The translations under genes and the position numbers were made by a program. From an uncultured Lachnospiraceae bacterium (GTDB taxonomy: Bacteria > Bacillota > Clostridia > Lachnospirales > Lachnospiraceae), in NCBI GenBank assembly GCA_900315735.1, contig ONAD01000002.1:13060-77059 (forward strand): 64,000 nt of DNA, given 5' to 3'. The notes below the pieces were generated by a model, which had not been told where the DNA came from, ran no database searches, and was given only the letters and a program-made list of their open reading frames with translations. The stretch's first letter is position 1; each line of letters opens with the position of its first letter. Positions 53,241 to 61,537 of the stretch are shown here, piece after piece.

Positions 53241-54482
53241 CTAATTTTCGGATTCTTCCAGTTGGGAAAGTACATCGTTAAGCTGGAAGGTGGAGCTGTC
53301 TATCAGGTCCGGAATGGAACCTAAGTATTCCAGATGAAAGCCGGCATAGCGGAAGAAATAGGTTGTTCTTAATCCATCATCCGGGATGGCAAGCTCGATA
53401 TATTCATCTGTTGTATCAAGGTCAATGAGATAATATTCACTGGTCATATCAGAGGCAGCACTGCGGGATAAGGTAAAGTCACCATCATAAAGCATTTCGG
53501 AATAATCGGTTCCATCTACTGTTAAAGTAGAAGAAAGAAGTCCGGTTTCTTCATTATAAGAGGTGTTATAGTAAACCGCATCCATTTCTCCGTTTCCATC
53601 CATATCTGCAGAAACCGCAGACCCCATTAAAGCATTCAACTGGAAATTACCGGTGTAATGATATTCAGCCTTCAGAGCATTGAGCTGCTGATAAGGGACA
53701 GAAAATAAAAGTGTACCGGAATAGGATGGCGTAATCGTTCCGCTATTGGCGATAAAAGTAATGCCGCCTTTGGTGAAATACCAGTTGCCATCAATCAGCA
53801 CATGGGTTAAAAGGTTCGAAGATACATCGGAACCGTCATGCTTGGCAAGCTGACTGACTTTGCCGTAGTTTGGTAACAAAAGCTGCTGGTTGATAAAAGA
53901 AAGTGCACTGTTTATCAGAGCATTGGAATCTGTAGCAATGTCAGAAAGCGTAAGTGCTTCGCCATTTTCCAAATCATAATTAAATCCGCCGTAAGCAACC
54001 CCTTTGGTCTCTTCGCTGGTAAATTCCTTCCGGGTGCTCACAAAGGATAAAATCCGGCTGTCCTGTCTGGTACAGGAGAATTCCTCGTCTAAGTGGTATG
54101 CAGAAAAAGAATCCGGCGATTCTGCAAAAGAAGCTCTTGCAGAAAGCAGGCTGTCTAATCTGGCGTCCTGAAAGGAATCCTGTTCCGCATTCAGGGACTT
54201 GGTAATGGTTTTGGAAATCTTCGGATGCCCGTCAATGGCTACCGTCGGTTTCTGATAGGAAGTATATAATAAAACAGTAGACAAATCTTCGGCATGATAA
54301 GTCTCCGTTTTCGCTTCAAAGGTAATTGTTACCGGGTCATTCTGGAGTTGTTCTGTTGACTCTTCCGCAGTATCCGGCTGTTCGCTGCCGGAATCCGTCT
54401 GGGATGAATTCTGTTTTTTCCCGCCACATCCGCTAAAAACCAGGGTGGCAATACAAATCAGGGCAATAAATCTTTGTTTCAT
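53241..54482 (-). CDS. Lipoprotein with DUF3298/RsiV-like domain
   Basis: I chose the ATG at 54482 (GAGGAG seven bases upstream). 413 residues. The signal ends at LVFSGC. The linker is Ser/Glu/Asp-rich. TVLLYTSYQKPTVAIDGHPK and the segment GVAYGGFNYDLENGEALTLS, then NALINSALSFINQQL, match the DUF4163-DUF3298 pattern of RsiV and related surface proteins, the extracellular part that in RsiV binds lysozyme. There is no sigma factor gene adjacent and no transmembrane signalling segment, so a binding role outside the cell is inferred. An EF-hand-like SADMDGNGEMDAVYY loop is also present. Confidence 0.8.
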   Translation of the reverse strand: MKQRFIALICIATLVFSGCGGKKQNSSQTDSGSEQPDTAEESTEQLQNDPVTITFEAKTETYHAEDLSTVLLYTSYQKPTVAIDGHPKISKTITKSLNAEQDSFQDARLDSLLSARASFAESPDSFSAYHLDEEFSCTRQDSRILSFVSTRKEFTSEETKGVAYGGFNYDLENGEALTLSDIATDSNALINSALSFINQQLLLPNYGKVSQLAKHDGSDVSSNLLTHVLIDGNWYFTKGGITFIANSGTITPSYSGTLLFSVPYQQLNALKAEYHYTGNFQLNALMGSAVSADMDGNGEMDAVYYNTSYNEETGLLSSTLTVDGTDYSEMLYDGDFTLSRSAASDMTSEYYLIDLDTTDEYIELAIPDDGLRTTYFFRYAGFHLEYLGSIPDLIDSSTFQLNDVLSQLEESEN

Positions 54483-54547
54483 CAGATATCTCCTCGTGGT
54501 TCGCATTCGTACCTAGAGTATAGCACATTTTATCTGGAAAAATCCTT

Positions 54548-54917
54548 AAAAAAGAATGAAGTTTTCCGGGGAAAGCGTTAGGGGTGAAAGAAGCGTAATG
54601 TCCGTGCTGTTCAGTGAGTCCGAATGCGACATAAGGGCGGCAAGGGGCACTAAGAATTTCGAAGGGATATGAGATTGGCTGGCAACCGGCGCAAATTCAC
54701 ATCCATGTTCATCTGCGCCTCGCCGGCACGTCCCTGTGCCGGCGATGCCTGGCACTATCCGAAATTCCAAGTGCCCCTAGCTGCCCTTATCATGCATCCG
54801 CACTTCGCTGAACAACACGGACATTACGCATTCCAAGTGCCCCTTGCAGCCCTTATATCGCATCCACACTCGATAAACCGTGGGGATATCCATTTCGTTA
54901 AAACTTTATTCTTTTTT
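54548..54917. repeat. 370-bp structured inverted-repeat element
   Basis: Outer arms AAAAAAGAATGAAGTTTT (54548-54565) and 54900-54917 are complementary at 17 of 18 bases. Inside, a 69-bp left unit (54593-54661) pairs with a 70-bp right unit (54760-54829) at about 83 percent. The right unit is followed by a direct second copy with a 66-bp period (from 54830). The GC-rich centre holds CGCCGGCAC/GTGCCGGCG (54721-54744) and GGCGCA/TGCGCC hairpins. This fills most of the 530-bp gap between two divergent genes. No protein gene is credible here. It could be a mobile miniature element or a structured RNA. Confidence 0.65.
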
Positions 54918-54930
54918 AAGATTCGTCCGA

Positions 54931-54959
54931 TTGAAAAGCCCTATCAAGAGGTATATAAT
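54931..54959 (+). promoter_or_regulatory. Promoter of the zinc-ribbon gene
   Basis: TTGAAA (54931-54936), 17 bases and TATAAT (54954-54959), about 50 bases before the ATG at 55012. Confidence 0.65.
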
Positions 54960-55011: not shown

Positions 55012-55377
55012 ATGGATTTTTTTGACCGCATGGGCGAGAAACTGGTAACCGCAGGAAAGGATGTCACACAGAAGGCAAAGGATTTATCCGGAACTGCAAA
55101 GCTAAACCTTGATATCAAGGCAAAAGAGGATTTTATTGAAAAGCAGTATGCACAGATTGGAAAGCTTTATTATGAAGACCACAAGGATGAAGCAGATGGT
55201 GCATATGGACAGCAGATGCAGGCAATCGCAGAGGCATTTGCATCAATTGACCATATGAAAGAGGAAGTATTAAAAATTAAAGGAGCACGGCAGTGCCCGC
55301 AGTGTGGTGCAACCGTTCCGGAGGACACCGAGTACTGTGGAAAATGTGGAGCAAAACTGAATATCTTTGAAGATTAG
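55012..55377 (+). CDS. Coiled-coil zinc-ribbon protein
   Basis: This is a 121-residue protein. Residues 1-90 form a helical segment (FFDRMGEKLVTAGKDVTQKA) likely to coil, and the C-terminus is a zinc ribbon with four Cys (CPQCGATVPEDTEYCGKCG). Such small proteins are common in Clostridia and of unknown role. It has its own promoter and terminator. Confidence 0.85.
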   Translation: MDFFDRMGEKLVTAGKDVTQKAKDLSGTAKLNLDIKAKEDFIEKQYAQIGKLYYEDHKDEADGAYGQQMQAIAEAFASIDHMKEEVLKIKGARQCPQCGATVPEDTEYCGKCGAKLNIFED

Positions 55378-59378: not shown

Positions 59379-59514
59379 CGCGAGTAGCGATGAAAATGCC
59401 GTGCTTGCACGAGCATTTGAGGAGCACCGCGAAAACCTGTGAAACGAAGTTTCTCAGGTCGCGAGTAGCGAAATGCGGCTCGCAGGAACACTTGAGAAAC
59501 GAAGTTTCTCAGGT
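59379..59514 (+). repeat. CGCGAGTAGC-family double repeat between T-box and metG, copy 6
   Basis: CGCGAGTAGC occurs at 59379 and again at 59460, and GAAACGAAGTTTCTCAGGT at 59441 and 59496 (exact 19-bp copies). The repeat GAAAC-GAA-GTTTC is self-complementary. The hairpin AAATGCCGTGC/GCACGAGCATTT (59394-59416) corresponds to 34204-34228 with compensating changes. The block lengthens the metG leader by about 135 nt. Confidence 0.65.
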
Positions 59515-59536
59515 AGTGAAGAAAAGGAGAATGAAG

Positions 59537-61537
59537 ATGAGCAGCAAAGGAAAGTTTTACATGACCACCGCGATTGCCTACACATCAGGCAAACCGCACA
59601 TTGGAAACACCTATGAGATTGTACTGGCAGACGCAATCGCAAGATACAAGAGACTGGAAGGCTATGATGTATATTTCCAGACTGGTACCGATGAACATGG
59701 ACAGAAGATTGAATTAAAGGCAGAGGAAAAAGGAATCACACCGAAGCAGTTCGTAGACGAAGTTGCAGGAGAAGTAAAGAGAATCTGGGATTTGATGAAT
59801 ACTTCTTATGATAATTTTGTGCGTACCACAGATGAAGACCATGAGACACAGGTTAAGAAGATTTTCAAGAAACTTTATGATAAAGGTGATATTTATAAGG
59901 GTTCCTATGAGGGACTTTACTGTACTCCGTGTGAGTCATTCTGGACAGAATCCCAGTTAGTAGATGGAAAATGTCCGGACTGTGGCCGTGAAGTGCAGCC
60001 GGCAAAAGAAGAAGCATACTTCTTTAAAATGAGCAAATATGCAGACCGCTTAATCGAGCATATCAACACTCATCCGGAATTTATTCAGCCGGTATCCCGT
60101 AAGAATGAGATGATGAACAACTTCTTACTTCCGGGACTTCAGGATTTATGTGTATCCAGAACCTCATTTTCCTGGGGAATTCCTGTAGATTTTGATCCAA
60201 AGCATGTAGTATATGTATGGCTGGATGCACTGACCAACTACATTACCAAGATTGGATATGATGCAGATGGCAATTCTTCTGATTTATTCAAGAAGAACTG
60301 GCCGGCAGATTTACATCTGATTGGAAAAGACATCATCCGTTTCCATACCATTTACTGGCCGATTTTCTTAATGGCATTAGACCTGCCACTGCCAAAACAG
60401 GTATTTGGACATCCATGGCTCTTACAGGGTGGCGAGAAAATGAGTAAGTCTAAAGGAAATGTAATTTATGCAGATGATATGGTAGACCTCTTTGGTGTAG
60501 ATGCAACCCGTTATTTCGTATTGCATGAGATGCCATTTGAAAATGATGGAATCATTACCTGGGAGCTGGTTGTAGAGCGTTTCAATTCTGACCTTGCAAA
60601 CATCCTTGGAAACCTGGTAAGCCGTACCATTTCCATGAGCAATAAATATTTTGGCGGTGTTGTAAAGAGTACCGGAGTAACAGAAGAAGTAGATGATGAC
60701 TTGAAGGCAGTTGTAACCGGCGCAAGAGATAAGATTGCAGACAAGATGTCCGGACTTCGTGTGGCAGATGCCATTACAGAAGTATTTAACGTATTCCGCC
60801 GCTGCAACAAATATATCGATGAAACAGCACCTTGGGTATTGGCAAAGGATGAAGCAAAGAAAGACCGCTTAAGCGAGGTACTTTACAATCTGACTGAGTC
60901 CATCACCATCGGTGCAAGCCTTTTAGCAAGCTTCTTACCGGAGACTGCAGAGAAAATCGTAGCGCAGCTTAATACAGGACTTCGTGGCTTTGATGAGCTG
61001 AATCAGTTTGGACTTTATCCAAATGATAATAAAGTAACCGAGAAACCAGAGATTCTCTTCGCAAGATTAGACCCGAAGGAAGTAATGCCGAAGGTAGAGG
61101 CAATCCGTGCTGCCCAGAAAGCAGAATTTGAAGCAGAGCAGAAAGCATTAGGCAAAGAAGTTGAGACCGAAGCAAAAGCAGATGCTGCTGTCATCGACAT
61201 TGAGCCAAAAGAAGAAATCACTTATGATGATTTTATGAAAATGCAGTTCCAGGTTGGTGAAATCATCGAGTGTAAAGCAGTAGAGAAATCCAAGAAATTA
61301 CTGTGTTCACAGGTAAGAATCGGAAGCCAGGTAAAACAGATTGTATCCGGTATCCGCAAACAGTATACACCGGAAGAGATGGTCGGCAAGAAAGTTATGG
61401 TATTAGTAAACTTAAAACCGGCAAAACTTGCAGGTGTATTATCTGAAGGAATGTTACTTTGTGCAGAGGATGAAAATGGAGAATTAGCACTTCTGACACC
61501 GGAAAAGGATATGCCGGCAGGCGCAGAAATCTGCTAA
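59537..61537 (+). CDS. metG: Methionyl-tRNA synthetase
   Basis: I chose the ATG at 59537 (AAGGAG seven bases upstream); ATG 59531 is too close and longer frames run into repeats. 666 residues. Class I motifs HIGN (GKPHIGNTYEIVLAD) and KMSKS (GGEKMSKSKGNVIYADD) are present. A zinc knuckle with Cys (CTPCESFWTESQLVDGKCPD) is in the connective domain, then the anticodon domain, and a C-terminal tRNA-binding OB domain (FQVGEIIECKAVEKSKKLLC) that dimerises the enzyme. It is regulated by the T-box leader. Confidence 0.97.
   Translation: MSSKGKFYMTTAIAYTSGKPHIGNTYEIVLADAIARYKRLEGYDVYFQTGTDEHGQKIELKAEEKGITPKQFVDEVAGEVKRIWDLMNTSYDNFVRTTDEDHETQVKKIFKKLYDKGDIYKGSYEGLYCTPCESFWTESQLVDGKCPDCGREVQPAKEEAYFFKMSKYADRLIEHINTHPEFIQPVSRKNEMMNNFLLPGLQDLCVSRTSFSWGIPVDFDPKHVVYVWLDALTNYITKIGYDADGNSSDLFKKNWPADLHLIGKDIIRFHTIYWPIFLMALDLPLPKQVFGHPWLLQGGEKMSKSKGNVIYADDMVDLFGVDATRYFVLHEMPFENDGIITWELVVERFNSDLANILGNLVSRTISMSNKYFGGVVKSTGVTEEVDDDLKAVVTGARDKIADKMSGLRVADAITEVFNVFRRCNKYIDETAPWVLAKDEAKKDRLSEVLYNLTESITIGASLLASFLPETAEKIVAQLNTGLRGFDELNQFGLYPNDNKVTEKPEILFARLDPKEVMPKVEAIRAAQKAEFEAEQKALGKEVETEAKADAAVIDIEPKEEITYDDFMKMQFQVGEIIECKAVEKSKKLLCSQVRIGSQVKQIVSGIRKQYTPEEMVGKKVMVLVNLKPAKLAGVLSEGMLLCAEDENGELALLTPEKDMPAGAEIC

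Follow-up and report, generated by a model that had tools for sequence, protein, structure and literature searches.

TwoAYGGAY (Rfam RF01731) was described in 2010 by Weinberg et al., who found it in the human gut, in Gammaproteobacteria and in Clostridiales and judged it to be a probable RNA, probably without a cis-regulatory role (PMC2864571). Gardner and colleagues hypothesized in 2014 that it binds CsrA (PMC4333381); both the motif and this hypothesis were known before the present work. A CsrA/RsmE site is an A-N-GGA-N loop closed by a C-G pair, with the consensus RUACARGGAUGU (PMC7652899). According to PMC4333381, CsrA-sequestering RNAs had been identified only in Gammaproteobacteria, and CsrA of the firmicute Bacillus subtilis is controlled by a protein, FliW (PMC7652899). 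The decoy sRNAs CsrB, CsrC and RsmZ (RF00018 and relatives) carry GGA in hairpin loops, with many sites per molecule and one or two sRNA genes. Repeats of the MITE, REP-BIME and ERIC types are short, non-coding, palindromic, dispersed and patchy between species, and those of ERIC or BIME type protect, cleave or insulate transcripts between neighbouring genes.

The window, a stretch of 64,000 nucleotides from an uncultured Lachnospiraceae bacterium, contains an element with traits of both groups. Positions 54545-54920, about 376 bp, form a single giant hairpin on either strand. For the 386-nt stretch that was folded, the minimum free energy is -186.9 kcal/mol on the plus strand and -194.9 kcal/mol on the minus strand, compared to shuffle means of -109.9 and -116.4; the z-scores are -13.4 and -13.7, and 0 of 100 shuffles per strand folded as well. 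A sequence-only reading had proposed nested inverted and direct repeats here, and every unit it described was recovered, far beyond chance. Its 70-bp inverted unit of about 83% identity appears as 69-70 bp at 83% when the element is matched against itself, its third, direct unit has exactly the period proposed, and its GC-rich double-hairpin centre consists of an inverted repeat (54717-54729 with 54736-54748) and a second hairpin. The outer arms are present, but not at the 18 bp proposed for them. A further ungapped inverted piece pairs 54598-54657 with 54830-54889 at 75%. Coordinates of the features, including the two genes whose divergent arrangement around the element had been recognized correctly, are collected in Table 1.

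Table 1. Features of the window copy and its surroundings, in window positions
Feature	Position	Strand	Details
Lipoprotein gene, DUF3298, divergent neighbour	53241-54506	-	
Extended -10 of lipoprotein gene, TGTGCTATACT	54517-54527	-	between element and gene; inferred from sequence inspection
Left terminal arm	54545-54565	.	21 nt, 95% complementary to 54900-54920
3' outer stem extension	54593-54617	-	inverted repeat with 54805-54829, ungapped, 92% complementary
Closing stem, 3' inner arm	54617-54661	-	inverted repeat with 54760-54804, 80% complementary
TwoAYGGAY core, Rfam RF01731	54629-54792	-	cmscan, full model 1-168
Hairpin 2	54688-54719	-	loop region AACAUGGAUGUG; sequence and 35-genome alignment
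Candidate CsrA site 2 (GGA)	54702-54704	-	hairpin 2 loop
Hairpin 1	54721-54744	-	9-bp stem, hexaloop AGGGAC (A-N-GGA-N), C-G closed
Candidate CsrA site 1 (GGA)	54731-54733	-	hairpin 1 loop; sequence, 35-genome alignment, loop census
Closing stem, 5' inner arm	54760-54804	-	inverted repeat with 54617-54661
5' outer stem extension	54805-54829	-	inverted repeat with 54593-54617
Third unit, direct duplication	54830-54870	-	41 nt, 85% to 54764-54804, spacing exactly 66
Right terminal arm	54900-54920	.	pairs with 54545-54565
Promoter of zinc-ribbon gene, TTGAAA-17-TATAAT	54931-54959	+	scan, 11/12 consensus bases; just outside element, facing away
Zinc-ribbon protein gene, 121 aa, divergent neighbour	55012-55377	+	

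Relatives have no element at the locus orthologous to that in the window. In an alignment with one such relative (L097), shared host sequence stops at about 54549, so that the start proposed earlier, 54548, lies close to the true left edge. Because the left arm had resembled host sequence of the relatives, we considered whether the terminal arms stem from the host, and rejected this; past about 54549, shuffles reach the same similarity.

The core of the element matches the RF01731 model over its full length, at 86.7 bits against a gathering cut-off of 43 (E = 1.7e-13), and has two hairpins with AYGGAY-type loops, in a Clostridia lineage like that of the family. The suspicion of a large structured RNA is thereby supported for the centre, which is a conserved structured-RNA motif, and the statement that no known pattern fits is right for riboswitches but not for RNA families in general. 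E. coli csrB, put through the same search, falls into the same Rfam clan, CL00106, and TwoAYGGAY, like the decoys of that clan, carries GGA in ANGGAN-type hairpin loops. The window copy presents its loops, CACAGGGACGUG and AACAUGGAUGUG, on one closing stem, the first with G replacing the Y of AYGGAY. When 35 genomes contributing one sequence each are aligned, both-sided changes occur in 31 of 32 predicted stem pairs, and no column is invariant apart from the GA in each of the two loops and the G that closes loop 1. A census in which the hairpin-1 loop was placed by pairing alone, with GGA not required, found GGA in 38 of 42 cases and CGA in the other 4. Within the organism's own genome, GGA is kept in hairpin 1 of 59/59 copies and in hairpin 2 of 58/59. 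The invariant letters are those of the CsrA-site pattern. SELEX ligands of CsrA typically have shorter stems than the 9-10-bp hairpin-1 stems seen here (PMC7652899).

Because 59 matches score over the RF01731 cut-off in the 2.8-Mb genome, the element is a dispersed repeat. The earlier description of it as a composite miniature element is supported as to the dispersed, high-copy repeat, with composite applying only loosely; the third unit is a duplicated piece of the window copy's own 5' arm. Alignment of the copies with their flanks shows that the Rfam model, 168 nt long, stops inside the element and covers the tip only, whereas the full palindrome measures 230-640 bp. When pairing is extended outward, about 25 copies are imperfect palindromes of roughly 450-640 bp and most others of roughly 230-420 bp. 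Many of the shorter copies have arms that resemble those of no other copy, yet pair with each other, a property that sets them apart from MITE, REP-BIME and ERIC repeats. Terminal inverted repeats are common only to subgroups of copies, and one end sequence is found almost exclusively adjoining cores. Three copies (L020, L028 and L030) have a different terminal inverted repeat in common, TAGGCGATTGCGA / TCGCAATCGCCTA, which suggests a subfamily or an insertion into another palindrome.

Distribution within the genus is very patchy: among the matches listed, several congeners have 0-3 and others at least 14-19. A plasmid collection gave no match to the element, and IMG/VR gave none to the one exact 30-base pattern searched. 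Sixteen faecal virome contigs, unannotated and deposited as phages (MT835487, MT835536, MT835472 and 13 others), contain relatives of the core, through either phage carriage or bacterial contamination.

Two sister species, about 94% identical around copies and with 13 occupied sites in common, show how the element changes in place. At two sites (L104/L124 and L114/L131), an element of 264-318 bp is inverted relative to both flanks. At a third (L113/L179) the tip is lost and both arms are kept, apparently between short TTAGATT repeats; at a fourth (L129/L177) the centre and one arm are gone. Each species carries an element at metG (L107/L176), but the two are oppositely oriented and their outer arms differ. 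The element is missing from one species at three further sites (L106, L115 and L120). We looked to these absent sites for an insertion footprint, and set them aside as such; they look like deletions with boundaries that are not sharp, and no clear target-site duplication was seen in the comparison of the two species. Both genomes also contain, beside transcript ends, dozens of copies of another short palindromic repeat that is unrelated to this one (TACTGTATAGGAAATTCC..GGAATTCCTATACAG) and was noticed at the loci around L129.

In the stems, G-U and A-C pairs number 11 vs 4 in hairpin 1 and 230 vs 311 in the outer arms, and by hand count the two kinds of cell are about equal in the 35-genome alignment. 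As G-U has no clear lead over A-C, the outer stem gives no indication that the GGA strand is under selection as RNA. An inner-stem ratio of 119:20 was discarded as proof of such selection, as it rests partly on recurrent columns common to related copies. Both-sided changes with very few G-U intermediates are what template switching during replication would yield (PMC8794818), and quasi-palindromes of this origin also undergo spacer inversion (PMC8604942), as in the inversions above. Close orthologues here differ from that model in showing mostly single changes: 11 orthologous pairs have 7 double and 95 single changes, with 2.2 doubles expected, and five of the seven doubles come from one pair with a rearranged tip. 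Template switching, which on these counts we do not regard as demonstrated, is suggested as the mechanism of arm pairing. In our reading, selection acts on the loops as protein-binding sites in RNA, and the arms owe their preservation partly to processes at the level of DNA.

The genome encodes one csrA, with 74 aa from its likely start and in an intact pair with fliW, in the order flgL-fliW-csrA-flaG (flgL, fliW and flaG being named from sequence). Judged by eye, the MLAL start and VYR segment of its product correspond to the E. coli CsrA residues Leu4 and Arg44. A candidate partner for a decoy RNA of the CsrB clan is present. In a family sample of 299 genomes from 298 genera, csrA was found in 44 of 45 genomes with TwoAYGGAY and in 110 of 254 without it (p = 1.7e-13). 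A class-wide sample gave 31/36 vs 94/355 (p = 2e-12); the TwoAYGGAY genomes with no csrA detected, five at class level and G198 in the family, include several that are incomplete. An association specific to csrA was rejected, because flagellin, present in 45 of 45 TwoAYGGAY genomes of the family sample, is associated equally. What the element tracks is the csrA/motility module as a whole.

A promoter scan found neither a promoter of the window copy's own nor one reading the minus strand, and no terminator or coding capacity was found for the copy. Neither neighbour's promoter transcribes the tip, because that of the zinc-ribbon gene reads away and the lipoprotein -10 lies beyond the element; the TATAAT block of the former, and a block resembling the latter (TATAACATAT), occur in relatives as well. 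The window copy may be silent or transcribed by read-through. Over the 59 copies no conserved promoter was found, and a terminator-like T-run after the stem is absent in 57; unlike CsrB, TwoAYGGAY copies do not have the appearance of a discrete sRNA gene with promoter and terminator of its own. Genes were called by simply taking the longest ORF, and neighbours were counted if they had 140 aa or more and lay no farther than 450 nt from a core; of the 50 cases that could be scored, 39 have a sense-oriented gene on the downstream side of the GGA strand (p = 9e-5). Divergent pairs outnumber convergent ones around copies by 12 to 2, and tandem contexts, counting all calls, have a sense excess of 24 vs 11 (p = 0.04), so part of the sense bias reflects position, not orientation. 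The downstream genes that could be recognized by eye are functionally mixed and have no common theme. A riboswitch, for which genes of one pathway and an expression platform would be expected, was rejected on this ground and on the lack of a terminator.

Some individual positions deserve mention. In the sister species, copies lie between T-box-like terminators, recognized by eye, and metG (L107) or valS (L102). Copies upstream of a spoIIIAA-like gene, again by eye, in two species of the genus (L073 and L129) are possibly a conserved site. Elsewhere in the window, at 59390-59540, the metG product as predicted begins with an unusual N-terminal extension that is itself repetitive (EHLR..EHLRNEVSQ); the start was probably called wrongly, over a small repeat.

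Of the possible functions of the TwoAYGGAY element, CsrA binding is the likeliest, and we hold it probable, with some reservation, that the element is a dispersed long-hairpin repeat with a TwoAYGGAY tip and predicted CsrA sites, acting as decoy or leader. The arms of a minus-strand transcript would form a long stem presenting two A-N-GGA-N hairpins, each of which would offer a high-affinity-type site to one face of a CsrA dimer, and the copies jointly would constitute distributed CsrA sites. As decoys they would titrate CsrA by a CsrB-like sequestration over some 60 loci rather than by one sRNA gene, with two sites per copy at dozens of loci; as leaders they would place CsrA sites on individual mRNAs. 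A bolder form of this proposal, which we put forward only tentatively, is that paired CsrA sites are spread through Clostridia genomes by a palindrome that inverts itself and reaches high copy number, acting as a distributed sponge or as wiring of the CsrA-FliW motility circuit, with arms kept complementary through DNA template switching and only the loop GGA selected in RNA.

It is unlikely, though the best of the rivals, that the element is a selfish or passive miniature mobile element similar to MITE or REP sequences, whose palindrome and hairpins some transposase recognizes as DNA, any likeness to CsrA sites being incidental or borrowed. High copy number, the patchiness within the genus, presence/absence differences between sister species, the lack of promoter or terminator at copies, both-sided stem changes for which G-U intermediates are very scarce, and outer arms that favour neither strand clearly would all suit such an element. 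Its many dispersed copies have terminal inverted repeats as a MITE would, with ends common within subgroups only. Against this, no target-site duplication or clean insertion footprint is readable, most differences look as if a palindrome already in place had been deleted or inverted, no letters are invariant but those of a CsrA site, and the element follows csrA/flagella genomes across 298 genera. We give a poor chance to a cis-acting transcript hairpin that works without CsrA, protecting transcripts between genes, insulating them or having them cleaved by RNase III. It would account for the long stems close to where genes begin or end, their depletion between convergent genes and the sister-species copies between T-box-like terminators and metG or valS, and it leaves the two invariant GGA loops and the association with csrA genomes unexplained. 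A decayed protein-coding gene or phage remnant, to which two short ORFs overlapping the element and the virome contigs might point, is very improbable, since neither ORF has a Pfam match, conservation is that of a helix and not of a reading frame, the element exists in 59 copies and not as a single decayed gene, the plasmid search and the IMG/VR search with one exact 30-base pattern were negative, and the virome contigs may contain bacterial DNA.

New here is information on the extent, copy number and dynamics of the element and on its association with csrA and motility; as far as we could find in the literature, it had not been described before as spread alongside csrA in the form of a high-copy, flippable palindrome. 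If the CsrA sites are real, the repeat would give Clostridia a second means of setting CsrA activity, and its dose would differ among species of a single genus, which range from no detected copies to dozens. How diverging palindromes stay paired can also be studied on the copies, which are long hairpins and natural paralogues of one another.
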